From Methanospirillum stamsii (GTDB lineage Archaea; Halobacteriota; Methanomicrobia; Methanomicrobiales; Methanospirillaceae), in the NCBI RefSeq assembly GCF_003173335.1, contig NZ_QGMZ01000001.1:1-64000 (forward strand): a stretch of 64,000 nt of DNA, given 5' to 3'. Both the position numbers and the translations under genes were made by a program. Every line of letters starts with the position of its first letter. Positions within the stretch are counted from its first letter, which is position 1. The notes beneath the pieces were generated by a model, which ran no database searches, had not been told where the DNA came from, and was given only the letters and a program-made list of their open reading frames with translations. Positions 3,470 through 23,300 of the stretch are shown here, piece by piece.

Positions 3470-4039
3470 TTATTGGGCCTGAACCTGCTGGACCAACGGC
3501 TGTGTGGGTGTTACATTTACCGTCTGCACACTCTGGCTTTGAACCGGAGCAGGAGCCGGAGTTGCCGGAACCTGTGATACAATAACCGGAGTTGTGGTGT
3601 TAGTTACCGGAGCAGTAACAGCCGGTCCTCCTACAGTAAGGTTTATCGCAGAACTTGCACCAGGCTGATATGTAGCAGTCTGGTCAGCGGTTTTATCATT
3701 AATTTTGAAAGTAATTGCCGGAACACCATTTGCAAAATCATTTTCTCCGGTCATCACTATCAACCGTTCATCAAAGGTTCCCATACCTCCAAAACTACCT
3801 GCCTGAGTCATGGTAATTGATCCCTGAAGGGTTCCGTTGACATAGGCAGTAATTACTGATCCTGCCGGAGCAGGAGAACCCTGAATAGCAACTGTCCCAT
3901 AAAATTCACACGGAAGCTGGGGTGAAGATGCAGATACAAGGCCACATAATGCGATACATACACCGGCAGCGAGAAGAGCCGGTATCCAGAGAGAATATTT
4001 GGTTGTCATAATATCATGAAAAAAAGGGATATTTCCCAT
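3470..4039 (-). CDS. Secreted single-module surface protein, last gene of the operon
   Basis: The 189-residue protein has a signal peptide (hydrophobic stretch about residues 16-36 ending VSA) and one beta-rich module starting LPCEFYGTVAIQGSPAPAG. The same module type recurs in the two upstream genes. A Pro/Thr/Val/Gln-rich low-complexity tail (about residues 135-189) could extend through a cell wall or carry glycans. It is the last gene of a four-gene minus-strand operon, starting 8 bp after the preceding stop. An internal ATG at 4009 would give a more typical signal peptide. No membrane anchor is seen at the C terminus. Confidence 0.75.
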   Translation of the reverse strand: MGNIPFFHDIMTTKYSLWIPALLAAGVCIALCGLVSASSPQLPCEFYGTVAIQGSPAPAGSVITAYVNGTLQGSITMTQAGSFGGMGTFDERLIVMTGENDFANGVPAITFKINDKTADQTATYQPGASSAINLTVGGPAVTAPVTNTTTPVIVSQVPATPAPAPVQSQSVQTVNVTPTQPLVQQVQAQ

Positions 4040-4047
4040 TTCTGGTT

Positions 4048-6480
4048 TTACCAGCCGGAGTAATCATCCGGCAGGATTACGTTACTTATAGATTCCACGA
4101 TATCATCGAAATACATGAAATCAGCACGGTCTGAAGACATTAAATCCAGGTTCGTAATTGATCCGGGAGTAAACGGATACGTATCACTCCAGGGAGCACT
4201 GGATAATGGGTTTTTCACTTCCGCTTTGTACCAGTATTCATATTCCTGAGGCTTTATCCAGAATGAAATCGGATCACGCTGCTCGATAGACCCGTATGGT
4301 ACATCAACCGTCAGCATATCTTTTTCAACCGGGTTTCCATATTCGCCAAAGGTGAGAACAGAAACAGGATTTGTCGGGTTTGAAAGATCAATGCCTTCAC
4401 GGGTAGCCATGACCCGGTCACCGACCCGGAGTGGATACCCATTAAACTCAGCCTTTCCATAGAAATGCTGGGGTTCCCATGCTGCAGGAGTCGGAGTTGG
4501 TGTCGGGGTTTGTGGAACTGTCGGAAGTGGTCCGGCCCAGAGATGAACGGTCCGGGATATTCCACCTTCGTAGGGAATTTCCCGTGTTTCGTTCAGATAC
4601 GTAATCGTTTCATTGTCATCGGTATTCTCATTGATGAGCCAGGCCTGAGTATACTGCGGCCATCCATCATCCTTTACCCAGAAGGTTATCTTTGCATCAT
4701 CTGGAAGGCATTTTCCCTGGATGGTCAGTTTATCTGCCCAGCTGCTGTTCCCACTACCAAAGTAAGCTGCAGAAACCATTGTAAATGGATTTTCCGGACC
4801 TGATACATCATATCCATCAATCCGTGCCTCAATCTGCCCACCAACTCTGATGTTTGGCTGGCAATTGTGGCAGACTCCTTCAGCATCCAGGAATTCTGTG
4901 CCATCAGTAATTCTGACATCTCCCTGGATGCTCATCGGAATTGAGGGAATACCGGCACACTCAGTCGGAGAAGGAGTTACCGGAATGGGTGGAATTTCTT
5001 CTGGCGAATTTTTCAGTACTGCCAGACGAAGAATTGTTTCCTGTCCTGGCTGATAAGGAACCGTCCAGAGATAAGACCCGTCATCCTGAAGAATGTAAGC
5101 CCTGCTCATCCGGTTATACTGATCAGCTACATAAAACTCAATTTCAGTGCCTTCCGGAATTCCCTGAACCTGTAATTTTGGAGAGAATGTACCAATCTTT
5201 CCAAAAACTCCTTTTGCAGTCTTGATTGGATTGAATTGTCCGGATAATTCATATCCCGGAGCTCTTGCTTCTACCGTGCCTCCACTTTGAATCGGAGTTC
5301 CATAAATCTCAATCGTCCCTACAAAGGTCTGTGGAACTGATGGAACTGCAATCGGAGTCATTGTTGGTTTCGGAGTTATCGGCCCGACTACGATATAATC
5401 TTCTTTGGATTCGGTTGAATCCAGACCAACTGCATCAGCAACCGTCAGATTAACCGAATATTTCCCATCCTTATCATACGTATGAACAGGGTTTTGTGCG
5501 GAATCTCCAGTGCCATCTCCAAAGCTCCAGGCAAATAACGTAGGACTGCCTGAAGATTTATCGGTAAACTGAACTTTCAAAGGTGCCTGCCCGGTCACAG
5601 GAGTTGCAGTGAAATCTGCCTTGAGTATTCCCCCGGAACCGGATGCCGTAATGTACTGTTCTTTGATGATAGATGCACTGCCATCAGTGTTTGAAACAGT
5701 AAGAGTGACGGAATACGTTCCAGGCAGCATATACTGATGAACCGGGTTAGAGATGGTATCAGTTGTTCCATCACCAAAGTCCCATGACCAGAGGGTTGGC
5801 CCGCCGATGGAAAGATCAGTGAAGGTTACCGTGAGTGGCACCATTCCGGATAATGGATCAGCGATAAAATCAGCTACCAGCGGTGACACTGAAGATACCG
5901 GTGGTTCAGTTACCACAGGATTCATCATCTCCGGAAGCTGGGGAGGCATGTCACTAATTGCCGGCTCTGAAATTTTGGATTCAGTTTTGTCATCCACAAT
6001 AACCGGATCAGAAACAATCTCTTCTCCGGTTTTTTCTGTGCTTTCTTCTGGGACAATTTCTGTCGTTTCAGCAGGAATGGATGTGACTGAAGGCGCTTCT
6101 CCTCCAATTGAAAGATCGAGATTAAGACTAATTCCAGGCTGGAAAGTTGTTTCCTGCCAGGCTTTCTGACCATCTATCCAAAAGGTTACCTTCGGACTTC
6201 CTCCAGATAAATCACTGTCTTCTGCGACAATCTTGAGTCGTTGATCAAAAGTTCCCGGCCCTCCATACTTTCCTGCTTCTTCAAGCACATACCGGCCTCG
6301 TTCTGCATCATTGATCTTTGCTGATAAAATAGTCCCTACCGGTGCAGGGGAGCCGTCAATGGTTACAGTTCCGTAAAACTCACAGGGAAGTGCCGGAGCC
6401 CCGGCAGAACAGACAAGTACTGAAGAAAACAGGAGGAGTGTAGCCAGTGCCGTCAGGGCGGCTACTGTTCCTGTATTCAT
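4048..6480 (-). CDS. Large secreted protein with repeated surface modules and two PKD domains
   Basis: The 810-residue protein has a signal peptide (residues 1-26) and then a module starting LPCEFYGTVTIDGSPAPVG. A Ser/Pro/Glu/Val-rich linker precedes two PKD domains (about residues 205-370) with WSWDFGDGTTD and FAWSFGDGTGD. Three divergent copies of the first module follow, starting near FVGTIEIYGTPI, SIQGDVRI and HFYGKAEFNGYPL and separated by Pro/Thr linkers. PKD domains are extracellular beta-sandwiches used in protein or glycan contacts. It lies 6 bp after the upstream gene and is probably co-transcribed. There is no C-terminal anchor, so it may be held in the sheath or S-layer by contacts. 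Confidence 0.8.
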   Translation of the reverse strand: MNTGTVAALTALATLLLFSSVLVCSAGAPALPCEFYGTVTIDGSPAPVGTILSAKINDAERGRYVLEEAGKYGGPGTFDQRLKIVAEDSDLSGGSPKVTFWIDGQKAWQETTFQPGISLNLDLSIGGEAPSVTSIPAETTEIVPEESTEKTGEEIVSDPVIVDDKTESKISEPAISDMPPQLPEMMNPVVTEPPVSSVSPLVADFIADPLSGMVPLTVTFTDLSIGGPTLWSWDFGDGTTDTISNPVHQYMLPGTYSVTLTVSNTDGSASIIKEQYITASGSGGILKADFTATPVTGQAPLKVQFTDKSSGSPTLFAWSFGDGTGDSAQNPVHTYDKDGKYSVNLTVADAVGLDSTESKEDYIVVGPITPKPTMTPIAVPSVPQTFVGTIEIYGTPIQSGGTVEARAPGYELSGQFNPIKTAKGVFGKIGTFSPKLQVQGIPEGTEIEFYVADQYNRMSRAYILQDDGSYLWTVPYQPGQETILRLAVLKNSPEEIPPIPVTPSPTECAGIPSIPMSIQGDVRITDGTEFLDAEGVCHNCQPNIRVGGQIEARIDGYDVSGPENPFTMVSAAYFGSGNSSWADKLTIQGKCLPDDAKITFWVKDDGWPQYTQAWLINENTDDNETITYLNETREIPYEGGISRTVHLWAGPLPTVPQTPTPTPTPAAWEPQHFYGKAEFNGYPLRVGDRVMATREGIDLSNPTNPVSVLTFGEYGNPVEKDMLTVDVPYGSIEQRDPISFWIKPQEYEYWYKAEVKNPLSSAPWSDTYPFTPGSITNLDLMSSDRADFMYFDDIVESISNVILPDDYSGW

Positions 6481-6486
6481 GATACC

Positions 6487-9400
6487 TCACACACCAATGG
6501 CTGCCAGTGTTCCTGGCGTCTCCATGTACAACCAGTATCCCTTCGATGGGAAGAGATAGGTGTTTTCACCTTGTCCACCGTTCACGATGGTAGACTCCCA
6601 CTGCTGATGCTGTGCATCATATCCACGAGTGTAAATCCATCCATCCTTCACAGATTTCAGGGTGTCCTTTGCTGTTGCCGGAGTGCCACCGGTAAATCCG
6701 ATTGCTGCCCATCCGCTTGGAAGGCTTCGGGTCGGTGGAGCACTGACCGGATCGTTCTTGAATTGCAGATTAATGGTATATGGAGTTACTGAATAGATCC
6801 AGTATCCATACAGCGGTGTGATTTCAGTTCCGGTCAGGACCTGGTCCCAGTACTGCTTGTATGGATCATATGCCCAGATTGCATGTCCTCCGGTTGGGAC
6901 ATCCTTGAAGACCACACTGGCATTGCTGGTGGCATCAGAGAGTGTCCGTGCCACTGAAATAAAGTTCCAGCCACTGAAGAGCTGAACTTTCGTCGGATCA
7001 TATGGTCCGATGGTCGGAGTCGGTTGTGGACCACCAATAACCGTGATATAATCGGTCTTGGTTTCACGATCCATTTCATCTCCGAGGGTGACTGTCAGAG
7101 TAACCGTGTACTTTCCACCAAAGGTGTACGTATGTGACGGGTTCTGAACTCCTGCGGAGGTATAGCCGTCACCAAAGTCCCAGAACCAGTTCGTTGGTTC
7201 TCCGGTTGACTTGTCAGTAAACTTAACATTGAGAGGGGAAGCCCCTGAAGTCGGGCTTCCGATGAAGTCTGCGGAAATTTTTGGCTCTCTTACCGTGATG
7301 TAATCGGTCTTTGTAACCGTATCCTCAAGACCTTCTTTGTTCATCACCGTGAGGGAAACGGTGTATACACCGTCATCTGAATAGGTGTGTTTTGGATTGA
7401 CTTCGGTTGAGATTGTTCCATCACCAAAGCTCCAGGACCACTGATTCAGATCCTTTCCGACAGACTTGTCAGTAAATTGGACTTCCAGGGGTTTTCCACC
7501 CTGGGTCGGGGTTCCACTAAAGTCTGCAGTCGGAACACCGTCATTTACAATCGTGAGCGGAAGGACAATGTACTTGTCATCCACAAGACGCTCATCAAGG
7601 AAGTCAGTTATGGCTTTAACAGCCTTTTCACCTTCATAGTAACCCTGTCCTTCAAGTGGGAAGAGCTTGCTCCACTCATCAGGATAAGAAGTTACCATCC
7701 AGATACGGTTTCCTTCAATCGGTGTCCGGACATCAGTCTCCTTTACCATGTCAAACTTGTGGTTGTACATCGGGTGCTGGAGTATGATGCTGTATTCACC
7801 TGGCTTGAGGTCACAGAGGCTTATGTAATTGAGCAGGTTTATCTCAAAGGTATCATCACAGTAGACCGGAATTCTGGCATTGACATACTTGTCATTACCT
7901 ACTTTCTCCTTTCCGAAGATCCACATGTTGATCTCTTTGGTTACATTCTCACCATCACCGGTGTGTGGGAATCCACAAGCAGTTCCGGTCAGCATGATTG
8001 CATCCTGGTCGGTCCAGCTGCATCCGTTCGGACAGCATCCTACCGGAAGTTCCACGATTTGCGGATCGAGGACTGCATCAAAGCAGGGTTCTTCGAAGAT
8101 GATTGTACGTGATGTAGTTGCTGCACAGGCACAATCCAGACAACATGCATTGATTGGCTGGCTTGCTGCGAAGATTGTGTAAGTTGCCGGATTAATTGGT
8201 GCCTTTTCAGTCTTCCAGGTGTATGACCAGGTGCCGTCACTCTTTACCGGAACTTCAATTGCTGTGAACTGGTCGGATTCTTCCTTGCAACCAAGCTCAA
8301 CCATGTCAAGACCCGGCTGTATGATGTTTTCTTCTGCATCCGGAGTCTTCCAGCCGAGGAGATCATTACCGCAACCGTTCTGACATGGTCCGGTCATGAA
8401 GAGGTAAACTTTATCGCTGTCGGTGTTTGTACCGGAGAGCGTGACATCATTACCAAGGTAATACGGAGCTTCCTCCTTGATGTCCATGGTTACAACTCCC
8501 TTGTTAACCTTAACCATTCCATCTCCGTCAATTACTGATTCAGGAGTCTCTTCAACACTCTGAACATGTATACGGTATGAACGGTCAGGTGCAACGTCGG
8601 AGCCTACCGTGAATTCAACTACCTGGTAACCGGTTGTATTTGTCAGAACCTTTGCGTAGTAATATACACCGTTTGCATAGACATTTGATGCCCATGGTTT
8701 GTCATCGGTTGGGACAACATCCCTGATGTTTCCGGTCTTCTCACAACAGTCTGGTGATAATTTTGTGTCACCAATCGGGAATGTGGTTCCGGCAGGATCG
8801 TCAAATGTTATTGTTCCGGCTGAAACACCACTCTGATCTTCACGGATCTTTGGCGGGCGGTCACAGGGTGCACCACTCATCTTTTCTGCACAGCACATTG
8901 TCGGATCTGTTACACCCGGGTCGCACTGCATGATGACAATGATGTAATCCTTGTTCGGCTTTCCACCAACTGTTACGTAGAATGATGAATTTCGGGTAAC
9001 ATCGCCCGGATTGACGATAACATCAACAGATTCGTCAACAATATTCAGAGAAGATGTACTGGTTTCTGTTTTTCCAACTATAACACCGTAAAAATTGTCG
9101 TAATTTTCTTTCAGATTGTTCAGATCAACTACTGCGGAAAATCCATACTCACCATTGATATACCGGCGTTTTCCATCGGAATTCAACGCTCCGGTATTCC
9201 ATCCGGATGAGTTGTCATCATTCTCCGGCCAATACCAGCTGTCTGCATCTACGGCCAGATCCTTGATTGAAATGTCAACATCAGGAATTCCGCTGAGAGT
9301 ACCTCTGAGATTTAAATAATTTTCACTGGAAACGTTAGAATATCCATTGATATCGATGATTCCCAGATCTTCTACAGGAAGTCCTTCTCCACGCTGTTGA

Positions 9401-10155
9401 ATTACAGAGTCAAGATTTGTATCAATTCTGAAATTTGCAAAGTCTCCGGATGAGATTTTTCCTCCGGATGCGATATACTGTTTTTCATTCTGGTTCCAGA
9501 CACGGAATGCAATTGAGGGATCGTTTACTACAAATGCAAGATCGCCTGCATTCGCTCCATCCCACTGGTACCAGTTTCCTAACTTCCCGTCAAAGGTTGC
9601 CGGGTTGATATAATATGAATGAGCACTGGTGATTGAAATCGCACTGTAACTTCCAGTACCTGATTTCCAGGCCACCATGTTGCCTGAACCTAAGGTCTTG
9701 GAGATGTCAAGTCCCTGCTCACCAAGGAATACATCCCCGCCTTTTGGCACGACTGTGAGCATATTTAAGGCTGCACCGGATACATGAAGGTCAAGTGCAC
9801 GGTTAACTCCCCGTTCATAGAGGATAGTTTCTTCACACTGAACTCCGTTCACGTAAAACGAAACCGGTTCACCTTCAAGAGTCTCATCAGCTCCTGCCTG
9901 AACCATCATCGGCTGTGAGTCGCTCCCGTAGACACCATCAGAAATCACGGTAGCAGTTCCGGCGACGGTTTCGTTCAGCATTGCAGTTACAACTAATCCG
10001 GGAGATGCCGGATCGTCATCAATGTAGAGCGTTCCAGTAAGGAACATCGGAACCAGTTGTTTGATCTCTACATCTTCAGCTGCAGTCAGAGACATACAGG
10101 AAAAGAGGAGAAGGATTAACAGACTGAATCCTATTCCTTTCATCGTGATATTCAT
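6487..10155 (-). CDS. Giant secreted DUF3821-like/PKD surface protein
   Basis: The 1222-residue protein has a signal peptide (about 1-26) and an N-terminal module (FLTGTLYIDDDPASPG) like those in the downstream genes. A DUF3821-like region starts near VFLGEQGLDISKTLG. A long cysteine-rich central region with CC pairs precedes two PKD domains (WSWSFGDGTIS, WFWDFGDGYTS). The C-terminal domain has two SGWNFISVA/SGWAAIGFT repeats. Its layout matches the upstream gene, indicating an old tandem duplication. It starts one base after the upstream stop, so the two are surely co-transcribed. A structural envelope role is inferred. The many cysteines suggest disulfide-stabilised folds outside the cell. 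Confidence 0.82.
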   Translation of the reverse strand: MNITMKGIGFSLLILLLFSCMSLTAAEDVEIKQLVPMFLTGTLYIDDDPASPGLVVTAMLNETVAGTATVISDGVYGSDSQPMMVQAGADETLEGEPVSFYVNGVQCEETILYERGVNRALDLHVSGAALNMLTVVPKGGDVFLGEQGLDISKTLGSGNMVAWKSGTGSYSAISITSAHSYYINPATFDGKLGNWYQWDGANAGDLAFVVNDPSIAFRVWNQNEKQYIASGGKISSGDFANFRIDTNLDSVIQQRGEGLPVEDLGIIDINGYSNVSSENYLNLRGTLSGIPDVDISIKDLAVDADSWYWPENDDNSSGWNTGALNSDGKRRYINGEYGFSAVVDLNNLKENYDNFYGVIVGKTETSTSSLNIVDESVDVIVNPGDVTRNSSFYVTVGGKPNKDYIIVIMQCDPGVTDPTMCCAEKMSGAPCDRPPKIREDQSGVSAGTITFDDPAGTTFPIGDTKLSPDCCEKTGNIRDVVPTDDKPWASNVYANGVYYYAKVLTNTTGYQVVEFTVGSDVAPDRSYRIHVQSVEETPESVIDGDGMVKVNKGVVTMDIKEEAPYYLGNDVTLSGTNTDSDKVYLFMTGPCQNGCGNDLLGWKTPDAEENIIQPGLDMVELGCKEESDQFTAIEVPVKSDGTWSYTWKTEKAPINPATYTIFAASQPINACCLDCACAATTSRTIIFEEPCFDAVLDPQIVELPVGCCPNGCSWTDQDAIMLTGTACGFPHTGDGENVTKEINMWIFGKEKVGNDKYVNARIPVYCDDTFEINLLNYISLCDLKPGEYSIILQHPMYNHKFDMVKETDVRTPIEGNRIWMVTSYPDEWSKLFPLEGQGYYEGEKAVKAITDFLDERLVDDKYIVLPLTIVNDGVPTADFSGTPTQGGKPLEVQFTDKSVGKDLNQWSWSFGDGTISTEVNPKHTYSDDGVYTVSLTVMNKEGLEDTVTKTDYITVREPKISADFIGSPTSGASPLNVKFTDKSTGEPTNWFWDFGDGYTSAGVQNPSHTYTFGGKYTVTLTVTLGDEMDRETKTDYITVIGGPQPTPTIGPYDPTKVQLFSGWNFISVARTLSDATSNASVVFKDVPTGGHAIWAYDPYKQYWDQVLTGTEITPLYGYWIYSVTPYTINLQFKNDPVSAPPTRSLPSGWAAIGFTGGTPATAKDTLKSVKDGWIYTRGYDAQHQQWESTIVNGGQGENTYLFPSKGYWLYMETPGTLAAIGV

Positions 10156-10156
10156 C

Positions 10157-13100
10157 TTACTCCCCTCCGAGTAGGATTCCTTCGGTATTCATCTCAATAA
10201 GATACCCAACCGTTGGATCCATCATCTTGTCATCATCCACTCCCCTGATAATCGGGTACTCCCACCGCTGGGTTACCGGATTGAATGAAAGTGTCTTGTT
10301 CCAGGTTTCTCCCAGGGATGCAAGGGCAACATTGGCTGGTGTCGGCTGCATGGCCATGATACCAATACCGTTCCAACCAACTCCAAGATTCCGGGTGAAT
10401 GCTCCTCCGTCAATGTACGTCGGAGTGATTATGACCGTGCCGGCATCAGCCTTCCAGACTCTGAGTGCTTCGAGCGGAACTACCGGATAATCATCCATTA
10501 CCGGTACCCATTCGTTACGCTCATTGTCAAATGCCGCATATGGAACTTCTCCGGATTCTATTCCGGCGAAGAGTTCACTGACTGTATTATAATCTTCAGT
10601 TACCGCTTTTGGAACTGAAACATGGTTCCAGCCCTGGGTAACTTCAAACTGACTTCCGGTTCCGATGGTAATGAAATTATCAATTACCAGGGTGTCAGAA
10701 CCTCCGTTGTTCGTTACCGTAAGTGAAACGGTGTAAATTCCCGGAACGGTAAAAGTGATTACCGGGTTCTGTTCTGATGAGGAACCGACAACTTTTCCTT
10801 CACGGATAAGTTCCCAGAGCCAGGAGTCTACAACTCCGGTGGATTCATCGGTGAACTGAACCTGCACCGGGAAGGAGTCAGAGGATGTCGGTTCTGCAGA
10901 GAATCCTGCTACCGGTGCATCGTTTAAGACAGTAATAATCTGTTCTGCAGGTAATACCGAACCAATTTCATTACCAATATTGAGAGTTACCGTGTAATTT
11001 CCAGGTTCAGCATATGCATGTGAAGGGCTTTGCAGTGATGAACTTGCATTATCACCAAAGTTCCACATCCATGCTGATGGATTTCCATTAGACAGATCTG
11101 TGAAATTCACTACATCATTTGCAAAAACCTTTGCAGGAGTATAGGAGAATTTTGCAGCTGGACCATCTGCAACCCTGATATAATCATTCTTAACAGTCTT
11201 ATACAGTTCATCCCCATTCAGGGTGAGTGATACTGCATACCTTCCAGTATTTTCATAAGTATGTGCTGGATTCTGTTCAGTAGAAGTTGCACCGTCACCA
11301 AAGTCCCAAGCCCATGAAGTTGCTTCAATAGTACTGATGTCAGTGAAACGGACGGTTAATGGTTTATTACCATAAGTCCGGTCTGCTTCAAAGTCCGCAC
11401 CACCACAAGGCCTGTCAGTTATGTTAATCTGGAGATGAACATAGTTATCATCAACATCCGGATCGTCAAGTCCTCGAAGAAGGGCAGTTAATACTTCAGT
11501 TCCAAGTTTGTATCCCGGACCTTCTACCTGAACGAGTTTCCTCCAGTCATCATCATAGAAGTACTGAGATTCCGGATCCGGAGTTTTTGTTATCGAACTT
11601 GCCCCCACATGAGTAAGGAAATCATCATTTGGATTACCTACTCCATTGCCATTTACGGTCTCATTGAAATTTTCAACAGGTCCGATGTCAGGGAAGCCAG
11701 ATAGAATCCACCTCTTTTGTTGTTCAACTGGGTTTGCCCAGATTTTTGGATCCAGCTGTGTTTCTAAGATAACATCAAACTGATGGTTGTATCCGGGATC
11801 CTGTACGACAATATCATAAACACCAGGATCAATTTCACAGAGCAATACTCCGGCTTCTTCCATCGCTTTTGCAAGATTATAGGAGTACGTACCATCACAG
11901 TTGACCGGAATTTGAGTATTGATATATTTTGCACTGCCTATCTTGCCCTTTCCAAACATCCAGAGACTTAATTCCTTATCTGCATTACCAAGAGATGTTC
12001 CATTTACAAGTATTGGATGGGCATCAAGAGTGGTACCACAGGGATAACCCGGACAACAACATCGTAGAACATCATCTGCCAGAGCCGTGAGTTCAGGACC
12101 TTTCAATGTTATCTCTGCTACTGCAACGACATCACAATTTGGACAATCCTCAATTGTACAAACTGCTCCACCACAGGAAACACAGGTCGGACACCAGGCC
12201 TGATTACTCAAAGCCCAGATTGTATAGGTACCCGGATTCATTGCAAGATACTTTGTCTGCCAATACAGTGGATTTCCAGATGCATCCTTATTCACAAATA
12301 TCCAATCAAAACCTTCAATCTGTGGAACACTTACTGGAACTACTTCCGGACCCATTCCAATCATTCGTGCTTTTGTCAGGTCAGGAGTAAGACCACCACC
12401 ACACTCCGGCTGACATGGTCCGGTCATATATAGATACGTCGTAAGACTGTCTGAATTCAATCCGGCAATTTTGAGAGTATCACCAAGGAATGCTTCTGTA
12501 ATCGGAGTGTTTGTTGCATCAGAGGACTGTGAAATCTGAACTGATATATCACCCTTCTGAACAGTTAATTCGGTTTCATCAAAGATGTGAACTCCATTAC
12601 ATTCAGGAGCACGTTTCTGAATGTGTACAGTAAAGACAGGATTGTCATCTGCTTTCCAGACTGTATTGTCAACATCAATATCTATTGTTGCCTGCCCACT
12701 ACAATCGGTTGTGATGCTTGCATAATAGAGTACGCCATCATTAAACTCGGTCGGGACTACTTCCCTGAAGGTCTTTCCTTCACAACAGGAAGGGTATACA
12801 ATTTCACTTCCAATCGTATACGGACCACCAACCGGATCAAATTTTAATGCGACATTCAGGGTATCATTGACAAACCACGGCGGACGATCACACACTTCCC
12901 CAGTCATTTTCCGTGGACATTCAATGATACCAATGATATACTCGGTTTCGGGTTTTCCAACAACTGTTGCAGTTGCCGTCTCCGTTCTTTTAATTGCACC
13001 CGGGTTTACCGTAACTACCACACTCTCCGGAACTAATCCCAGATTTGTTGTGGTTGACTTTGCTCCACCAACAACTGCATAATTGTCAATAATGTTGTTA

Positions 13101-13918
13101 GCCCAGCAGGTGACTGAAACTGCATATGTCCCATCAGGAGTATACAAAAGTCCCGTTGTTGGATCAATTGCATCCGTGTCCCAGGTCTGCCACTGATGAG
13201 TATTTGTCAGGATATTGATATCCTTAACAGAGATCACCGGATAATTCGGATTACAATCAGGACAATTACATCCTCCTGCATCCGGACCGAGAAGAGACTT
13301 GTAATCTTTCCCATTCGAACCTACGACATTAATATCAAAGATACCAGCGTTTGCACCATTGGTACGTTCCTGGATGTGGTACAAATTAGTCTTGATGTTA
13401 AAAACCAGATCCGTTCCAAGGAAGACCTGACCGGTTCTGTTGACTTCCGGACAGATAGTATCAGCCGGAACAAGTTCGATGTGTGGAATTGCAACGTAAT
13501 ATGCTACTACAGGCTGACCGCCATTCATGATAGGCATACCACTTGCCTGATCACAGAGGTAAAAAGCACCCTCCATGATTGCATCATTCAGGGTGTAATC
13601 TACCTGGTTTACAAAGTAGTCAGTTTCACTGCCTGCTGCAATCGTAAGATATCGATCCGCAGGAGTTGATCCTACTTCAGCAACACTCTTCCACCATCCG
13701 ACATAGTTTACCGGAAGACCGGTGTTCGGATTAATAAGCGCATTCGAAATGTCCAGACCAGTCTCTCCGATGAATATATGCGTCCCTTGATCTACAAGAG
13801 GAACCGGAATATTCATCCCGGCTGCTGATCCCGGACTTATGAGCATCAAACTGACGCTCATCAGAACCAAAAGCCAAATCTTACTGTTTCGTTCAGATTT
13901 TTTTCCATCTCTTTCCAT
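10157..13918 (-). CDS. Giant secreted DUF3821-like/PKD surface protein, first gene of the operon
   Basis: The 1253-residue protein has a signal peptide after a basic start (about residues 1-34). A DUF3821-like domain follows (THIFIGETGLDISNALI), then a long cysteine-rich middle with CNCPDC, CCCPGYPCG and several CC pairs. Three PKD-type domains (about residues 840-1110) include WAWDFGDGATS and WMWNFGDNASS. The C-terminal region has a QGWNHVSVP/VGWNGIGIM repeat. Order and spacing of the domains parallel the next gene. It leads a four-gene operon and is preceded by a long GC-rich leader. A major envelope or sheath component is plausible. No enzymatic motif was seen. Confidence 0.82.
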   Translation of the reverse strand: MERDGKKSERNSKIWLLVLMSVSLMLISPGSAAGMNIPVPLVDQGTHIFIGETGLDISNALINPNTGLPVNYVGWWKSVAEVGSTPADRYLTIAAGSETDYFVNQVDYTLNDAIMEGAFYLCDQASGMPIMNGGQPVVAYYVAIPHIELVPADTICPEVNRTGQVFLGTDLVFNIKTNLYHIQERTNGANAGIFDINVVGSNGKDYKSLLGPDAGGCNCPDCNPNYPVISVKDINILTNTHQWQTWDTDAIDPTTGLLYTPDGTYAVSVTCWANNIIDNYAVVGGAKSTTTNLGLVPESVVVTVNPGAIKRTETATATVVGKPETEYIIGIIECPRKMTGEVCDRPPWFVNDTLNVALKFDPVGGPYTIGSEIVYPSCCEGKTFREVVPTEFNDGVLYYASITTDCSGQATIDIDVDNTVWKADDNPVFTVHIQKRAPECNGVHIFDETELTVQKGDISVQISQSSDATNTPITEAFLGDTLKIAGLNSDSLTTYLYMTGPCQPECGGGLTPDLTKARMIGMGPEVVPVSVPQIEGFDWIFVNKDASGNPLYWQTKYLAMNPGTYTIWALSNQAWCPTCVSCGGAVCTIEDCPNCDVVAVAEITLKGPELTALADDVLRCCCPGYPCGTTLDAHPILVNGTSLGNADKELSLWMFGKGKIGSAKYINTQIPVNCDGTYSYNLAKAMEEAGVLLCEIDPGVYDIVVQDPGYNHQFDVILETQLDPKIWANPVEQQKRWILSGFPDIGPVENFNETVNGNGVGNPNDDFLTHVGASSITKTPDPESQYFYDDDWRKLVQVEGPGYKLGTEVLTALLRGLDDPDVDDNYVHLQINITDRPCGGADFEADRTYGNKPLTVRFTDISTIEATSWAWDFGDGATSTEQNPAHTYENTGRYAVSLTLNGDELYKTVKNDYIRVADGPAAKFSYTPAKVFANDVVNFTDLSNGNPSAWMWNFGDNASSSLQSPSHAYAEPGNYTVTLNIGNEIGSVLPAEQIITVLNDAPVAGFSAEPTSSDSFPVQVQFTDESTGVVDSWLWELIREGKVVGSSSEQNPVITFTVPGIYTVSLTVTNNGGSDTLVIDNFITIGTGSQFEVTQGWNHVSVPKAVTEDYNTVSELFAGIESGEVPYAAFDNERNEWVPVMDDYPVVPLEALRVWKADAGTVIITPTYIDGGAFTRNLGVGWNGIGIMAMQPTPANVALASLGETWNKTLSFNPVTQRWEYPIIRGVDDDKMMDPTVGYLIEMNTEGILLGGE

Positions 13919-14192: not shown

Positions 14193-17100
14193 TTAAGTTA
14201 CAGTAATGCGAGCCGAATATGAATCACTCATATACGAGTTCTTTACCGTAAGCCGGGCCGGATAAATTCCTTTTTGAGAGTACTGATGTTCCACCGGACT
14301 CCAGTCACCTGAAGTGAAAGTATCAATATCTCCATCACCATATTCCATCACCCAGGAAAGAATTGATCCGGATGATGTATCCGTGAATTTTACTTTCCGG
14401 TCAGCGAGGTTTTCAGTTGTAAAACCTGCTTTTGCGGTCGGATTTTCAATGGTAATTTCCTGGGTAACTGAATCTGATCCCGCACTGTTTCCGGCAGTTA
14501 AAGTGACCTCATAGGTGCCATAATCACTGAAGAGATGTTCCGGACTCTGGGTAGATGATCCAAGACCATCATCAAAGGACCACTGCCATGAGTAGATCTC
14601 ACCCTTTGAGGTATCAGTGAACTGGACCTGAAGCGGATTAACGTCATTCAGTTCATAGGTGAATGCAGCCGCCGGAGGATTAACCGGAGGAACAGCAATC
14701 GACTGGGCAATTGTGTTTGTCTTATTAAATTCATCTGTGACGGTAAGACTTACTTCATACGTTCCGACTGAGGAATAGGTATGTTTTGGACTCTTTTCAG
14801 ATGATCCAAGAGTATCGCCAAAAGACCATGCATAGCCCAGTGGAGTTGCACCATAACTCTGGTCAATGAATTGAAGCGCCAGAGGTTCATTGTCAACTTT
14901 TGCATAGGTAAACCCGGCTACCGGATCAAAGAAGATCTGATCTGATGCGAATGTTCCAAAGTAGGGAATATAAATCTCTTTTGAGATTGTCCCGGAAATT
15001 TCACAGGCGGTAGATTGTACTGTTAAAGTGATAGTGTAATTCCCTGGTTCTTTGAACATATGAGTTGGAGCTCGTTCTACTCCGGCAGGTGATCCATCTC
15101 CAAAGTCCCAAAGCCATTTGTCAATAACACAGGGTTCACCTAAGGAATCATATGCTATTGATGTATCCATGAACTTATACGAGTACCCGTATGTTCCATT
15201 CCGGTCAATCATATCATAGGTAAATCCAGGTGTAACTTCTGAACCTGATGGCGGGTAAACTGTTACGTCATTGGAGTTTTCGGTCCACCCCATACCATCT
15301 TTGAGAATTACCATTACCCATGGAGAATACGTTCCCGGATACTGGTATGTGTGATTTGGTCTTTGTTCAAGAGATGTTCCTGGATAATACATACCATCGC
15401 CAAAGAACCACAACCACTGGGCCACGTAATCCTGTGACTCTTTATCAGATTTTCCATTTACAGATAGATCTGCATTGAATTGCACATCAAGAGGGGCATC
15501 TCCAGAAGCTGGTTTTGCCCAGACATTTGACAGTACAGCAGTATTTAGAATCCATACATTATACGAATCATATTGATCCGAATCTGGTTTGATCAAAGAT
15601 TCATTTACTCCATGTACGTTCGAACTTTTCAGATGGACTGTGTAAAGACCCGGTGCAGTAAATTTGTGAACAGGACTTCTGAGTGAAGATGAAGAATTAT
15701 CTCCGAAATCCCATTCCCAAGAGTCTTCCCATGAATCTGATTCATTACTCCAGAATTGAATGGGATCACCAACAAAGCCATAAGCCCAGGTGTTTACTCC
15801 TGCAAAATATTCATCAAACGGATTTTTATTCATCATTTTCATATCCGGATGAGGAATATCATCAGGGAATACTTCCAGTTCTCTTTCTATTGGATCTGGA
15901 TTTAATCCATCTTTAGAAGCTGCCAGAGTTACTGTGTATTTGCCGGTTCCCGGGTAAACAACACGAGGAGTAAAATCATTTGAAGTTGCAGGCTCTCCAC
16001 CTTCAATAGTCCACGTAACATCCCAATCTGCAGTAATTCCTAGGGGTATAAGCACAATACTATATGGAGATTTGCCATAATCCTGTATCCAGGTGAAATT
16101 TATTCCTTCATTTGATGGTTCATATGCATGAACCATATGCTCTTTACTGTCAACTGCATTTGGTTGTACATTTTCAGACGAGTATTCCTGTTCGCCATGT
16201 TGCACAAATAACCTGACAGTATAATCTCCTGCTTCAGTATACAAATGAGTTGGATTCTTCTCATGTGAAGAACCTCCATCACCAAACGACCAGGTATAAT
16301 TTGGAATTACCAGATTGGCTAGGAGATCAGGATCCAGCACTGATTGATCAATAAAGGAGACATTAAGAGGTACGGTACCATTTTCTGGAACTGCAGCGAA
16401 ATCAGCTGTTGGATACCGCTGTACACCTACATTTATGAAATCAGTCTTATTTTCATAGTCTGTTTCACCATGTTGATCAATGATACTCAGGTTTACCCAG
16501 TATTTACCAGTATATGGAATCTTAAACTGTGGATTATGCTCAGTTCTTCGTTCACTAGTCCAAGTACTGTTACCTATAGTCCAGTTATATGCTAACGGAC
16601 CCTCTCCAATACTCTGATCAATAAGAGTAAAGTTGAGGGGAGCAAGACCTTCCCGGACAGATGAACTGAAGTTCGCTACCAACCCACCAGGATAGACCTG
16701 AATATTTTCTACCGAAGTTTCATCGCTTTCTCCGTACCAGTTTTCAACGTATGAAGTAATATTGTATATACCGGGATCGGAGAGGAGGAATACAGGATTT
16801 TTTTCCGTACTGCTGGCAACGTGTGTTCCAGTAGAATCATATACATCATATTCATAACTGAGGGACACATTTGACATCGTATAATTAACCATACTCTTGG
16901 ACTGGTCAATTACACTCACATTCAAAGGCCCGACTCCAGCCATTGGAACTGCCGAGAAATTCGCAATAGGCATTACATTGTCCGGAGGGATTTTAAATGT
17001 CTTACTAATGGTCGTATAATTACCATTCGCTCCCACCGTGAGGTTAATATCATAATAAACAACCTCCTTCGACATATTCATGGTGAACTGACTTTTTCCG

Positions 17101-17720
17101 GTTAAATTTTTTTCTTCGCCAGTCTTTTTATTTGTTCCTTTCCACCACCATTCGGTAACATTCAATTCAGGATCAATCTTCGAGTATGAAAGATCATAGA
17201 ATGTCACTGTACCATTTGGATCCAGAGCCCTGTCATCATAGGCGGCTTTTGGCATCATACGAGCAGTAATATTACCACATGGACCATACTTATAGAAATC
17301 AACCGTCAAACTAGAACTGTTAAGGCCGGTTTGATTTGCTGCAATAAGCTGAACTGTAATGGGATCTCCAGCGGATAGAGTGGTATCATAAGTAACATTA
17401 CGCTTACTTGGATCAAATATTGGAGATCGTACTACTCCACCAATCGTCCAATTCCATGAACCTATTGTATCCGTACCATTCCATGATGAAATATCATTAC
17501 AATACAGAATATCATTACAGGAGTAATTTGCTGATAAAGCTCCTGAATGATTTCCACTAAAAAGCGTCATACCAGCCTGATTCTTTACCGTGAAATTAGC
17601 TGATACTGCCGCAGTACCTGGCTGGAAAAATAATACCAGGAGAAGAAGCACCCCGAGTATTACAATTGCCCCGTTTAGGATTTCTTTTCTGAAAAGAAAT
17701 CTCCTATCATCCGATTTCAT
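14193..17720 (-). CDS. Secreted protein of about eleven PKD-type domains
   Basis: The 1175-residue protein has a basic N terminus and one hydrophobic signal segment (about residues 16-38, ending GTAA). The rest is an array of PKD-type beta-sandwiches. About seven keep the WxFGDG signature or a close variant (YTWSFGDGGSS, WEWDFGDNSSS, WLWDFGDGSPA, YAWSFGDTLGS, WQWSFDDGLGS). Three or four more are divergent. The chain would be an extended rod of roughly eleven beads. No catalytic motif or C-terminal membrane anchor is visible. It lies alone between a terminator and a 290-bp AT-rich gap. An adhesive or structural envelope role is inferred from the architecture. Confidence 0.8.
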   Translation of the reverse strand: MKSDDRRFLFRKEILNGAIVILGVLLLLVLFFQPGTAAVSANFTVKNQAGMTLFSGNHSGALSANYSCNDILYCNDISSWNGTDTIGSWNWTIGGVVRSPIFDPSKRNVTYDTTLSAGDPITVQLIAANQTGLNSSSLTVDFYKYGPCGNITARMMPKAAYDDRALDPNGTVTFYDLSYSKIDPELNVTEWWWKGTNKKTGEEKNLTGKSQFTMNMSKEVVYYDINLTVGANGNYTTISKTFKIPPDNVMPIANFSAVPMAGVGPLNVSVIDQSKSMVNYTMSNVSLSYEYDVYDSTGTHVASSTEKNPVFLLSDPGIYNITSYVENWYGESDETSVENIQVYPGGLVANFSSSVREGLAPLNFTLIDQSIGEGPLAYNWTIGNSTWTSERRTEHNPQFKIPYTGKYWVNLSIIDQHGETDYENKTDFINVGVQRYPTADFAAVPENGTVPLNVSFIDQSVLDPDLLANLVIPNYTWSFGDGGSSHEKNPTHLYTEAGDYTVRLFVQHGEQEYSSENVQPNAVDSKEHMVHAYEPSNEGINFTWIQDYGKSPYSIVLIPLGITADWDVTWTIEGGEPATSNDFTPRVVYPGTGKYTVTLAASKDGLNPDPIERELEVFPDDIPHPDMKMMNKNPFDEYFAGVNTWAYGFVGDPIQFWSNESDSWEDSWEWDFGDNSSSSLRSPVHKFTAPGLYTVHLKSSNVHGVNESLIKPDSDQYDSYNVWILNTAVLSNVWAKPASGDAPLDVQFNADLSVNGKSDKESQDYVAQWLWFFGDGMYYPGTSLEQRPNHTYQYPGTYSPWVMVILKDGMGWTENSNDVTVYPPSGSEVTPGFTYDMIDRNGTYGYSYKFMDTSIAYDSLGEPCVIDKWLWDFGDGSPAGVERAPTHMFKEPGNYTITLTVQSTACEISGTISKEIYIPYFGTFASDQIFFDPVAGFTYAKVDNEPLALQFIDQSYGATPLGYAWSFGDTLGSSEKSPKHTYSSVGTYEVSLTVTDEFNKTNTIAQSIAVPPVNPPAAAFTYELNDVNPLQVQFTDTSKGEIYSWQWSFDDGLGSSTQSPEHLFSDYGTYEVTLTAGNSAGSDSVTQEITIENPTAKAGFTTENLADRKVKFTDTSSGSILSWVMEYGDGDIDTFTSGDWSPVEHQYSQKGIYPARLTVKNSYMSDSYSARITVT

Positions 17721-17949
17721 TGCATAATCCCCATTATAAATACGATCCTTCTCTTGATCAGGATAATTATAGTAATTATTGGATATGATATATAGATTAT
17801 GGAATATAGTTGAAAAGATATAATCGAAAATCTGTATTTAATATTCTGAATTATTCTAATTATCAAAAAGAAAGAAAAATTTAACTTTTTTAGCCCCTAA
17901 AAGGGAAAATATTAAAGTGTACATCAAATTTTATTTTTTAAAACGAATC

Positions 17950-18008
17950 GTGCGCTTTTCATTCACTTATTTATTCAATAAAAATCCAAAAAATACAAAA
18001 AAATTAGA
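17950..18008 (-). terminator. T-rich termination region after the NHL gene
   Basis: Immediately after the stop at 18013 the minus strand runs through several T tracts (A runs on the plus strand at about 17989-18003). No strong stem was seen. Oligo-T stretches of this sort terminate archaeal transcription, so this likely marks the end of the NHL transcript. Confidence 0.4.
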
Positions 18009-18012
18009 AGGT

Positions 18013-20286
18013 TTAAACCGCACCAGTAACGGTAAACGTTCTGTCACTAAACTTCTGCACTCGTGAATTCCGGGCATCTAACACATATACATTTCCTTCT
18101 TTGTCCACCCCAATGCCACGGGGAGTATCAAATTCACCAGGACCAGAACCATAAGAACCCCACTCGGTCAGATATTTTCCATCCGAATTGAATTTGATAA
18201 CTTTCTCATTGCCCGTATCAGTTACATAAATATTTCCGGCTACATCTACGGTCACCCTGAATGGATAGGAATATCCTACCGAATCTGAATATTTTGTTAC
18301 AAAGGAAGTCAGGAACACACCCCCGGAATTAAATTTCTGGATTCGTTCATTGTATGAATCAGCTACATATACATTATCTGATTCGTCCACGAAGAGACCC
18401 CGGGGATCATTAAATTGTCCAGGATCACTTCCTTCAAAGCCCCATGATCCCAGGTAGACACCATCTGGTGAAAATTTCTGAATACGATTGTTATACGTAT
18501 CAAGAACATAGACATTTCCCAAACTGTCAACACCGACATCAGAGGGATAATCAAATTCTCCAGGTCCGGTACCTGACGTACCCCATGAATCAAGGAATAT
18601 TCCTTCAGAATTAAACTTCTGAATCCGGTCATTTCTCATATCTGCAACATACACATTGCCAAAACCATCAGCACATACCCCATAGGGTCTGTTGAACTGT
18701 CCGGTTTTTTCCCCATAAGATCCCCATTCAGTTACACATATTCCATCAGATGTGTATTTCAGGATCCGGTTATTGCCACTATCAGCGATGTAAATATTCC
18801 CAACATTATCAATCGACAATGCATATGGATTATAATAGTTATATGGTCCGGGAACACCAACCATCATTTGGAAGATGCCAACCGAACTAAATTTCGATAC
18901 TCTGCTGTTTTCAGTATCTGTAACATATACATTTCCTACACCGTCTACACAAATTCCAACCGGATAATTAAATTCAACCAGTCCATTTCCTGTTGAACCC
19001 CACTCATCCAAAAATTTTCCATTTAAATCAAATTTCTGAACACGACTATTACCGGTATCCATCACATATACAATACCAGAATTATCTACACTTATATCAT
19101 AGGGATAATAAAACTCACCAGAACCTGAACCCTTAGTCCCCCAGCTTGAAAGATAATTCCCGGATAAATCAAACTTCTGAACGCGACTATTACCGGTATC
19201 CATCACGTAGACATATCCAGGGTTATCAGCACTTACTCCATAGGGATAAAAAAACTGACCAGGTTCCGATCCATATGATCCCCATTCATTCAGGAAAACG
19301 CCGTTAGAATTAAACTTCTGAATCCTGGAATTCCCAGTATCTGCTACATACACATTCCCGGACCCATCAACGCTAATTCCAAATGGCGAATTAAACTGCC
19401 CAGGTTCAGAACCTATTGATCCCCATTCATTCAGGAATTTTCCATTGGAGTCAAATTTTTGAACACGGTTGTTTCCTATTTCTGTAACATAGATATTCCC
19501 CTTACTGTCAGCATCAATTCCGACAGGATACATAAAGTTACCCTGATTTTTACCATAGGTTCCCCATCCGGTCAAATACGTACCTGTAGGACTGAATTTC
19601 TGGATACGGCAATTGTCGGTATCTGTAACATAAATATTTCCAGATCCATCAACACAGGATTTGGCTGGATACATCAGCACAGATCCTGAACCCCAGGTTG
19701 AATTAAAATACTTGGCAGAAATGACTCCATCAGGATTTGAAACTTCAATCGAGTATCGGCCCGGATCCAACCCAGTCAGATTGAATGAAGTGGTGATATT
19801 CCTGGAATTGACATATGTAATCGGATTGATATTTTTCTGACGGTATACACCATTGGTCAGGTTTGTTGTGACACCGCGTTTAAAATTAGATCCAACAATA
19901 CTCACTGATTGAGATGAGGAACTATTAAGCCCAAAATTTGGAGAAACTGAGTCAATCTTTGGAATAACAAGTCTGGGTAATGTCTGTGCAGTTATTGCAG
20001 AATTGTTTTCCAGTACCTCATCTACCCACATATTTTCTACAGTTACTCCCTGTTCCGGAAATCTCCTGTCATCCAATATGTGATGTCTGGATAAATTTTT
20101 GTCAAGACAAAAGAGGGATTCTATATCTCCTGGAACAAATATTACCATTGAGATGTTTTCGATTTCATCCGGACTACTATAATTCCAATTATTATCAGAA
20201 TTGTTTATCTGCTCCCCATTACAGGTTATAAAAATGCAGAAAATTAATAGACTTATCAGTACTATTTTCTTCATTACACCCACCAA
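18013..20286 (-). CDS. Secreted NHL beta-propeller protein with IPT/TIG-like domain
   Basis: The 757-residue protein has a signal peptide, and ATG 20274 (MKKIVLISLL) is the better start. An N-terminal region precedes an IPT/TIG-like fold near IDSVSPNFGLNSSS. Twelve NHL repeats follow from about residue 205 to the end, each of the form GNVYVADTGNSRIQKF. Twelve repeats would fit two six-bladed propellers or one large ring. Repeats 4 and 5 are nearly identical, so the array has recently expanded. NHL propellers bind proteins, RNA or glycans. The signal peptide places this one outside the cell. No catalytic residues were recognised. Confidence 0.82.
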   Translation of the reverse strand: MVGVMKKIVLISLLIFCIFITCNGEQINNSDNNWNYSSPDEIENISMVIFVPGDIESLFCLDKNLSRHHILDDRRFPEQGVTVENMWVDEVLENNSAITAQTLPRLVIPKIDSVSPNFGLNSSSSQSVSIVGSNFKRGVTTNLTNGVYRQKNINPITYVNSRNITTSFNLTGLDPGRYSIEVSNPDGVISAKYFNSTWGSGSVLMYPAKSCVDGSGNIYVTDTDNCRIQKFSPTGTYLTGWGTYGKNQGNFMYPVGIDADSKGNIYVTEIGNNRVQKFDSNGKFLNEWGSIGSEPGQFNSPFGISVDGSGNVYVADTGNSRIQKFNSNGVFLNEWGSYGSEPGQFFYPYGVSADNPGYVYVMDTGNSRVQKFDLSGNYLSSWGTKGSGSGEFYYPYDISVDNSGIVYVMDTGNSRVQKFDLNGKFLDEWGSTGNGLVEFNYPVGICVDGVGNVYVTDTENSRVSKFSSVGIFQMMVGVPGPYNYYNPYALSIDNVGNIYIADSGNNRILKYTSDGICVTEWGSYGEKTGQFNRPYGVCADGFGNVYVADMRNDRIQKFNSEGIFLDSWGTSGTGPGEFDYPSDVGVDSLGNVYVLDTYNNRIQKFSPDGVYLGSWGFEGSDPGQFNDPRGLFVDESDNVYVADSYNERIQKFNSGGVFLTSFVTKYSDSVGYSYPFRVTVDVAGNIYVTDTGNEKVIKFNSDGKYLTEWGSYGSGPGEFDTPRGIGVDKEGNVYVLDARNSRVQKFSDRTFTVTGAV

Positions 20287-20385
20287 TAAATATAGAAAAT
20301 GATATATAAAAATAGATAAATGTTTCGATTATGTGTAATTTTTTGATAATTATCAAATTAAAAAAATTGAAACAGGAATAAAGAT

Positions 20386-23300
20386 TCAGGGACCAAAGAA
20401 CAATACCGAATCTGCTCCTGTACTCATCGGAACGGTAATGTCACCCATAACAACCTGACTCTGGGAAAGATCATTCCTGGACCATAATGATACCGTGTAT
20501 GTTCCTGACTGGGCATAGATATGTGGAGGAGGATACTGTTCACTAGAGGTTGCACCATCCCCAAAGTCCCATTTCCACTTATTTGCACCACCTAAGGATT
20601 CATCATAAAATGTTACAGTATTACCATCACCTGACTTAACAGAAAATCCAGAAATTACAACACCAGGAAGGGGTTCATTATTGAGCCGGATAGTATAATC
20701 TTTATCAACTGAAGATATCACAAATGGTGAATCAGTTGATTTCTCTTCATTATTTACGGTAAGATTCTTTACTCTGGCTCCTGCAGTCGGGTTGAACGTG
20801 AATGAAAGTGAACTGCCTGGATCTGCTGAAAAAACTCCTGAAGGATTGATCCAACCAATTCCATCAGATGATGCGTTAATTGTAAAGCCATTTGCAGATA
20901 CAACAAAATTTGATGGAGCAGATGACCCGCTTATTCCTTTAACGATAACCGGATGATTGCCAAGAGTATTGTCAACAGTCTCCGGGAATGTTGCATTGAT
21001 TATAGTAGCTGATTCGACCACATAGGAGACAACTGAACCATCAACTGTCACATTATTTAATGCTGGAACTGTGTCAAAACCTGTTCCGGTAATAGTTACC
21101 GGGAAAGAAGTAGTGTGGTTGTTCTGTAGACAGCCCCCAGGATTCAGATTTGTTATCACCGGAAGAGCCGGATTAATGGTGAACTGGATATTGTTATTAC
21201 TAAACTGACCTCCCTGGTTTACACTGACATTCCAATAACCGATACTGGAAGTGGGAGGAAGGTAAAGAGGTGTTGTCAGGTTATTACCGGACAGGATACC
21301 TGTAAATGTCAGATTCGACTGACCAATCTTTGTCAAGTTAATGATTGCCCCGGTTGCAAAATTATTCCCGGTAAGATTGACTGGAAAAGTGCTGCCAGCC
21401 AGACCTGAATTTGGATAAATCCCGGTTACTTCCGGTTTGAGTGGGGCAGTAATGTTAAACTGAATGTTATTATTACTGAATAAACCATCCTGTTTGACTG
21501 TAACATTCCACAGACCTCTTTCTGCACTTATAGGTAGGTTAAAAGAAACAGTAAGGTTGCTTCCTGAAAGCATACTGGGAAATGTCAGATTTGACCGGTT
21601 TAAACGGCTTAAATTGATCTGTGCACCGTCCTTAAAGTAACTGCCAGTAATATTGAAAGATACATCAGTCCCTGCTTTACCTGTATCTGGAAAAATTCCG
21701 GATACCACCGGAGGAACAGGGGCAGTTACATTGAATTGAATATTATTATTGCTATATAATCCACCGTGATTAACAGTCACATTCCACAGGCCTTTTTGTG
21801 CAAGTAACGGTAAATCAAAGGAACCGGTTAGATTTGGCCCAATTAATATTCCGAGTGATGTGATATTTTTCTCAATACCACTGGTAAGATTAATGATTGA
21901 ACCATTTCCAAAATTACTGCCGGTTACAATGAAAGGAACATTTCTTCCGACACTTCCATGGTCAGGATTTATTCCGTTGACAACCGGAGGAACAGGGGCA
22001 GTTACATTAAACTGGACATTATTATTACTATACCTGCCACCCTGACTTACTGTCACGTTCCAGAGACCCTGTTTTGAACTTACAGGTAAGTCAAGAGAAC
22101 TGGTAAGATTAGTTCCGGATAGGGTGCCTGTTGTAGAAATGTTAGTCGCATCATTCCGACTCAGGTCAATTTTTGCCCCATTCGTAAAATTATCCCCGAT
22201 CAGTTTTACTGGTATTATTGAACCGGCAGAGCCAGTACCAGGAATAATACCCAATACATACGGAGTTATTGGTGTTTTTATTTCAAACTGAATGTTATCA
22301 TTACTAAATTTTCCACCCTGGTTTACACTGACATTTCGCATGCCTGCAACGGCGGTTGAAGGTATTGTAAAAGAACCGGTAAGATTAGTTCCGGACAAAC
22401 TTCCCGTTGTAGTAATGGTCGCCTTACCAGTGCTGGTAAGGTTTACCCGTGCTCCGTTTGCAAAGTTGCTTCCAGTCATATTGAAATGAACATCTGAACC
22501 AATATGACCAGAAACAGGATTAATGGATGTAACAACCGGAGCAGGTGAAAGGTGTAAGACACCCACCGCATAATGTTGCATGGCAGGACTAGAGCCATAA
22601 GTCCCACCCCATGTCATGGTATGATAGGTATAATCCCAGGTATCATGGAGGATGACAGTATTAGGTGTGGAATACCCCACACCTAGCATGGTATGTCCTT
22701 GTACTTGAATAAGGACTGGATAACCAGCATCTATTTCTGCCTTATACTGATCGTAGGTAAATCCTTTGGTATTCCCTCCGTACCCATAAATATACTGATT
22801 ATAATTTGTAAGCACTGAATACCCACGAGACTCAGCAAACAGTTTCATCCCATGAATACCATCTCGTCCTTTTACAGATTCATTACCGGTATAATCATAC
22901 AAAGGAGAGCCATCTTTGTTATAATAAAAAGTAGTGCTTCCATCAGAATTCCTCCAGTTCTGATACTGATTGGTTCCCATATAATCACCGATGCAATCTA
23001 AAGGAGTATGTTCTGACCAGGCACTGTAATAAGGATCAGTCGTAGATCCATATGCAGAATAATAGTCATTTTTATGCCCTTTGGAAACACGCCCATCAAG
23101 ACCCAGTTGTGAGGCACTCAGTGGACATTGTCCCTGACTTTCAAACGAAGGACCCCATACCGAATTGTTCAAGGGGAAAACTCCTCCATTAGTCGGACCA
23201 ACATAAAAATTAGGATACCCGTTCCGATCAAAATAACCAAAATACATCGCTGCAGAAGTAGCCGAACAGCCATATGACCAGTCCAATGCAGGAACATCGG

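Follow-up and report, generated by a model that had tools for sequence, protein, structure and literature searches.

The first 64,000 nucleotides of contig NZ_QGMZ01000001.1 of Methanospirillum stamsii (assembly GCF_003173335.1; this whole stretch is referred to as the window) carry a set of four genes, here called A, B, C and D, which lie head to tail on the minus strand with intergenic gaps of 1, 6 and 8 nt and are separated by 274 nt from the upstream neighbour of A; their spacing and overall span are exactly those given in an earlier note on this DNA. Our analysis points to this operon as encoding a second surface layer (S-layer) system, detached and disulfide-rich, whose most likely product is the end and spacer plugs; we assign this reading a probability of roughly 0.45. 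A and B, enlarged and cysteine-rich S-layer paralogues, would probably assemble a hexagonal lattice of their own, their chains stiffened by disulfides and, being without anchors, assembling apart from the membrane. C, with four transthyretin (TTR)-like modules, two PKD domains and flexible proline-rich linkers, and D, with one module, would be elongated partners that bind or space the layers through the module held in common with B, and the product in Methanospirillum would be a multilayered hexagonal end and spacer plug sealing each cell compartment in the sheath. We infer secretion, disulfide cross-linking, lattice, module contacts and plug site alike. Slightly less probable is the fuller version, in which this plug locus arose as a second S-layer system, free of the membrane and hardened by disulfides, by duplication of an S-layer gene, C and D serve as inter-layer connectors, and related sheathed genera keep an ancestral membrane-anchored C whose anchor was lost upon detachment into the plug. 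The protein composition of archaeal plugs is stated to be unknown in passages of PMC6242892, PMC11576556 and PMC11641113 (2018–2024), and the comparative genomics described in PMC11576556 could not link further proteins to sheath or plug formation. A conserved B–C gene pair that occurs only with the sheath protein, together with a switch between anchored and free C, provides candidates for end closure and layer linkage in the sheathed filament.

A and B align with 29% identity over about 1,200 residues (E 4e-115), and DUF3821 is matched at 139.9 bits in A and 160 bits in B against a Pfam cut-off of 23, so that on sequence grounds both are members of the DUF3821 S-layer superfamily. The proposal that they are parallel paralogues, each with DUF3821, a Cys-rich core, PKD domains and a GWN repeat, is borne out, with small corrections: PKD domains (three in A, two in B by Pfam) also occur in C, which has two, and neither C nor D belongs among the S-layer paralogues. 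The NCBIfam model NF041431 (MEMAR_RS02690 family S-layer glycoprotein) matches B at E 1e-91 and A at E 4e-59, with bit scores (308.7 and 201) below the curated cut-off of 600, which leaves both outside the equivalog. Two other genes of the source genome (L001 and L002) pass that cut-off, among 17 S-layer matches in the genome. Cysteines number 2.15 and 1.80 per 100 residues in A and B versus 0.11 and 0.12 in L001 and L002, a 16- to 20-fold enrichment over the main S-layer protein, which fits the earlier description ‘disulfide-rich’, the disulfides themselves being presumed; the row L147_SLP, a neighbouring ORF under a wrong label, is left out of this comparison. In a midpoint-rooted tree of 26 core segments the Methanospirillum-group A1-type, A2-type and B proteins fall together (support 98/98), apart from the main S-layer proteins (100/100). 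Mhun_2263 has a C-terminal membrane anchor to which the name PGF-CTERM has been applied (PMC11641113); neither this nor any other anchor was found at the C-terminus of A or B. L001 ends in a PGF-CTERM-like segment, a motif assigned by eye. The absence of a C-terminal hydrophobic anchor extends to all four operon proteins, whose best internal 19-residue hydropathy is at most 1.26, as had been claimed. Hydrophobic N-termini suggest that all four are exported; of the phrase ‘giant secreted proteins’, the size fails for D.

In M. hungatei JF-1 (G150) an open reading frame (ORF) of 377 aa with Cys257 and Cys271, at a distance of about 9 kb to the gene of the main S-layer protein, was taken as the sheath protein MspA/SH because its length and cysteine positions agree with those reported (377 aa and C271, PMC6242892; Cys257, PMC10593813). 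A profile of this ORF and 13 relatives (A4, threshold 1e-10) and one of the B-type Cys-rich core (A3, threshold 1e-40) were applied to 232 genomes of the order, absence calls resting on first-look candidates in each genome (up to 11 of them scored with A3, up to 10 with A4). SH was found in 53 genomes and 13 of 40 genera, the B-type core in 28 genomes and 11 genera, and all 28 are SH-positive: 28 of 53 SH-positive versus none of 179 SH-negative genomes. Fisher probabilities, uncorrected for ancestry, are 9e-22 at the level of genomes, 3e-8 at that of genera and 0.006 when only the genera of family f1 are counted. In a phylum sample of 256 genomes A4 matched families f1 and f10 only, 13 genomes of f10 carrying SH without the B-type core, and Methanothrix-type SH is perhaps too distant for this profile; no B-type core at 1e-40 was found outside f1 in the same sample. 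B is missing as well from those genera of f1 that have no SH, and Methanoregula is reported to have lost SH (PMC11576556); provided that those genera include Methanoregula, the two would have been lost together. Two other markers were dropped: the long C block, with long matches only in G000 (the source genome) and G047 of 150 genomes, and B with its PKD and GWN regions (profile A2, five candidates scored per genome), replaced by the Cys core because GWN and PKD are widespread. Some SH copies in G160, G153 and G157 have an in-frame stop, suggesting decaying duplicates.

Counterparts of A and B appear to have been met already in sheath material. The JF-1 operon lies at about 484.7–495.3 kb, with 71%, 76% and 66% identity to the window for B, C and D, and a methenyl-tetrahydromethanopterin (H4MPT) cyclohydrolase gene, mch (PF02289), follows at 516.6–517.6 kb, about 21 kb beyond it. 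Mhun_0444 is one of three such genes (PMC4704411); if the JF-1 mch is taken as Mhun_0444, counting back gives B as approximately Mhun_0425, and the A-type and B counterparts would be the adjacent Mhun_0424 and Mhun_0425, numbers obtained by counting and not from an annotated record. The N-terminal module of B agrees with the additional immunoglobulin (Ig)-like domain reported at the N-terminus of Mhun_0425, and Mhun_0424 and Mhun_0425 were both found in sheath preparations at an abundance below that of the S-layer and sheath proteins (PMC11641113). The finding is only partly new: the earlier statement that no description as a system exists is true for the four genes jointly, and for A-type and B the association of these S-layer paralogues with the M. 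hungatei sheath had already been noted (PMC11641113). A literature search for Mhun_0423 to Mhun_0427 returned only PMC11641113, with nothing on 0423, 0426 or 0427 in what was retrieved, and neither C nor D is described in any paper found. The envelope or sheath role proposed for the set is supported by S-layer paralogy, by these counterparts in sheath preparations (PMC11641113) and by the confinement of the B-type core to SH-positive genomes; that the set forms the sheath itself is refuted, the sheath being made of the unrelated SH, and none of the nine SH matches (A4) in the source genome falls inside the operon.

The same observations bear on the idea that A and B form an alternative or condition-specific S-layer, taking the place of the main S-layer protein in certain growth states, C and D being accessories and the sheath having no special tie to the set. 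Clear paralogy and the many paralogues per genome, with the 17 matches in M. stamsii and 14 paralogues in JF-1 (PMC11641113), would suit it; the strict nesting of B-type genes within SH-positive genomes and the recovery of the JF-1 counterparts in sheath preparations that also contained the main S-layer protein (PMC11641113) make it quite improbable.

The B–C pair is conserved well beyond Methanospirillum. We surveyed 26 loci, which between them represent 26 of the 28 genomes with B (L008 being G155; G231 lies outside the survey), a non-blind sample in that most loci were chosen from earlier matches to both genes. Twenty-four of them have a module-bearing ORF downstream of B, at −28 to +33 nt, the other two contigs ending 386 and 106 nt downstream of B; L010 (G159) likewise has B followed by a module-bearing ORF. 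Twenty-two C-type proteins are complete. A strong C-terminal hydrophobic segment (hydropathy 2.7–4.2) with a short tail is present in 12 of 12 from genera g2, g5, g7, g10, g12, g37 and g38, and a membrane anchor in none of 10 from g1, g6 and g39 (Methanospirillum, Methanofilum and g6). No C-terminal anchor was seen in the 11 B-type proteins tested. A genome scan returned 80 loci, of which four (L007–L010) are relatives of the operon and the rest, chiefly matches to PKD regions, were set aside. The order A-B-C-D is kept in L007, L008 and L009 (Candidatus Methanofilum arcanum, Methanospirillaceae), in L010, where A is cut, in loci L142–L146 of the genus Methanospirillum (L146 being from the L007 genome) and in G047, of another genus. 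The full C block is present in nine of 12 genomes of the genus Methanospirillum and missing from G151, G152 and G157 (67, 90 and 88% complete).

The placement of the module at the N-terminus of B recalls a published proposal for Mhun_0425, in which this protein enters the main S-layer as part of hetero-hexamers, its N-terminal domain spanning the 4 nm gap to the sheath (PMC11641113); C and D would add further cross-links. Densities linking S-layer caps and sheath, the presence of Mhun_0425 in sheath preparations and the mixed-hexamer model (PMC11641113), together with the restriction of B-type genes to genomes with SH, speak for such a tether. It leaves unexplained the A-type proteins, which have no module, and the loss of the anchor from C, and mixed assembly with the main S-layer is only putative. 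Moreover, the N-terminal module occurs in 13 of 27 B-type ORFs (all of g1, g6, g39, g12 and g37, one of three in g5 and one of two in g38) and is absent in g2, g7, g10 and g40; with 14 of 27 lacking it, the module is not essential to the link between B and SH. We regard the tether, taken as the explanation of the operon and the chief competitor of the plug, as rather unlikely, and both it and the plug could hold.

Several properties of the set favour the plug. Plug layers are described as S-layer-like and larger, their composition not established (PMC11641113), and A and B exceed the main S-layer protein in size. PKD proteins of the sheath preparation were named as possible plug proteins (PMC6242892), and A, B and C carry PKD domains. 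In the plug-forming genus the proteins of the set have no membrane anchor, and its absence from C would be expected of a detached structure. The confinement of the B-type core to SH-positive genomes and the cysteine content of A and B count in favour as well. The lower abundance of Mhun_0424 and Mhun_0425 relative to the main layers (PMC11641113) also fits. A correspondence between three S-layer paralogues and three wavy plug layers in JF-1 was considered and set aside, because the window and L007 have only two such paralogues.

Other observations weigh against the assignment to plugs. Treatment with 0.1 M NaOH frees the plugs of M. hungatei (Patel 1986, as cited in PMC6242892), yet the material in which Mhun_0424 and Mhun_0425 were detected had been washed with 0.1 N NaOH (PMC11641113); plugs set free in this way could still pellet. 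Of the SH-positive genomes, 27 reach a completeness of 90% or more; a B-type match is present in 19 of these and missing in eight, and the operon set is therefore not needed for every sheath. We know of no plugs in the other B-type genera. L002, a main-type S-layer paralogue, has no PGF-CTERM-like anchor, so anchor loss alone is not diagnostic. Lastly, the co-occurrence is uncorrected for ancestry and within f1 the module itself tracks SH (18 of 18 SH-positive genomes, none of the 16 SH-negative genomes listed), and a lineage-wide change of the secretome could possibly explain part of the SH–B pattern. The missing anchor of L002 (contig C4 of the source genome) parallels a report for Mhun_2513.

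The module, of about 95–135 residues, was recovered in each of its six copies by profiles built from the other five (E 6e-17 to 8e-6 in a search of 3000 proteins; reversed copies gave E 90 or worse), which confirms the counts of one, four and one proposed for B, C and D. Pfam and NCBIfam searches of D gave no match and a sequence search of the module against the PDB nothing significant (best E 0.28 over 22 residues); the possibility raised earlier of a known catalytic family thus found no enzyme match in these databases. D1 is predicted as a seven-stranded beta sandwich (predicted local distance difference test, pLDDT, 90.4; predicted template modelling score, pTM, 0.83), and fold alignment of the model points to TTR-like or carboxypeptidase-regulatory-like domains, the FimD usher C-terminal domain and the S-layer protein SlaB at Z 5.7–7.3, values below 8 that may reflect a merely common arrangement. 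Foldseek returned nothing at E 0.001 for the module (best E 3.6e-3, a pilotin). Residues 380–810 of C are predicted as three module-type beta domains with low-confidence linkers and a disordered tail (pTM 0.39). Across Methanomicrobiales the module is found in 61 of 150 genomes, among secreted proteins. The label ‘uncharacterised’ therefore stands as regards sequence databases and has to be qualified for a domain that is common in the order and TTR-like by prediction. Its use as a sheath-specific domain was ruled out, as 43 of the 61 genomes belong to families without SH.

Adhesins often carry PKD or similar beta domains, and the four proteins could be viewed as a surface adhesin set in which PKD, module and GWN proteins act in cell–cell or syntrophic contact. 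The genes upstream in the window, which encode more secreted PKD, NHL and protease proteins, are in keeping with this view; the DUF3821 S-layer core, the conserved cysteine pattern and the lack of any anchor to fix an adhesin on the cell render it very improbable.

Gene A of the window is a fusion. Its first approximately 1000 residues are of the A1 type and its C-terminus of the A2 type: against the A1-type protein of G154, identities run at 55–81 per 100 residues to about residue 1000 and then fall to zero, and against the A2-type protein of JF-1 at 21–46 per 100 residues to the same point and 73 directly beyond. A of L007 switches likewise. Upstream of B, JF-1 has the two types as separate frames, A2 with 1297 aa and A1 with 1104 aa, and the pattern fits a deletion that joined such tandem A1–A2 genes into the A of the window. 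Other Methanospirillum genomes (L148, G150:C1:472000-484000; L149; L150) carry, upstream of the operon, further large S-layer-like or PKD ORFs (about 750–1137 aa), some of them Cys-rich. A second cluster of three large ORFs with a GWN region at the end is present in several Methanospirillum genomes (G000:C32:46314-54103 and G150:C1:2708016-2714811).

Table 1. Positions in the window of the four genes and their parts.
Feature	Position	Strand	Basis
Gene A: S-layer paralogue without anchor; DUF3821, Cys-rich core, three PKD domains, GWN repeat; 1253 aa, 27 Cys	10157..13918	-	
DUF3821 of A, residues 44-278	13085..13789	-	Pfam, E 1.4e-40
GWN repeat region of A, C-terminal	10160..10666	-	alignment; no Pfam match above cut-off
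Gene B: S-layer paralogue without anchor, N-terminal module; 1222 aa, 22 Cys; putative Mhun_0425 counterpart	6487..10155	-	
Module copy B1, residues 35-127, N-terminal to DUF3821	9775..10053	-	profile
DUF3821 of B, residues 138-349	9109..9744	-	Pfam, E 1e-46
B-type Cys-rich core, the co-occurrence marker (first row of alignment A3)	7546..8265	-	
GWN repeat region of B, C-terminal	6490..6993	-	alignment; no Pfam match above cut-off
Gene C: predicted secreted; four modules, two PKD domains, Pro-rich linkers, conserved C-terminal tail, no transmembrane anchor; 810 aa	4048..6480	-	
Module copy C1	6100..6387	-	profile
Module copy C2	5014..5334	-	profile
Module copy C3, the longest copy, with inserts	4531..4938	-	profile
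Module copy C4	4132..4473	-	profile
Gene D: predicted secreted; one module, Pro/Thr-rich tail; 189 aa	3470..4039	-	
Module copy D1	3626..3913	-	profile

Upstream of A, on the same strand at 14193-25680, further secreted proteins follow in a run: one with eight PKD domains, one with NHL repeats, one of TIG/PKD type that also matches a C39-like peptidase, and one papain-like C1 peptidase carrying PKD. The ORF at 30023-31141 gives a weak match to a DDE transposase.

Among known systems, A and B are closest to the main S-layer proteins Mhun_2263 and Mhun_2513 and to NF041431, with which they share a homologous DUF3821 and Ig-like core and of which the architecture is reported to be like that of the Haloferax volcanii S-layer (PMC11641113). 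They differ in being about 1.4 times longer and Cys-rich, in lacking PGF-CTERM, in the added PKD domains, GWN repeat and, in B, module, and in scoring 201 (A) and 309 (B) bits against the NF041431 cut-off of 600. SH/MspA (Mhun_2271) is likewise secreted, cysteine-bearing and found in the same organisms, yet no homology to the operon proteins was seen. TTR-like and carboxypeptidase-regulatory-like beta sandwiches resemble the module in predicted fold and differ from it in giving no sequence match. The nearest precedent is the pair Mhun_0424/Mhun_0425, alike in being S-layer paralogues with DUF3821-type Ig-like domains, in their adjacent gene numbers and in their recovery from sheath preparations. 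The passages of PMC11641113 on this pair concern two genes only and do not name C, D, the module, the operon or the co-occurrence, and the A gene of the window differs from its JF-1 counterparts in being a fusion of two JF-1-type genes.

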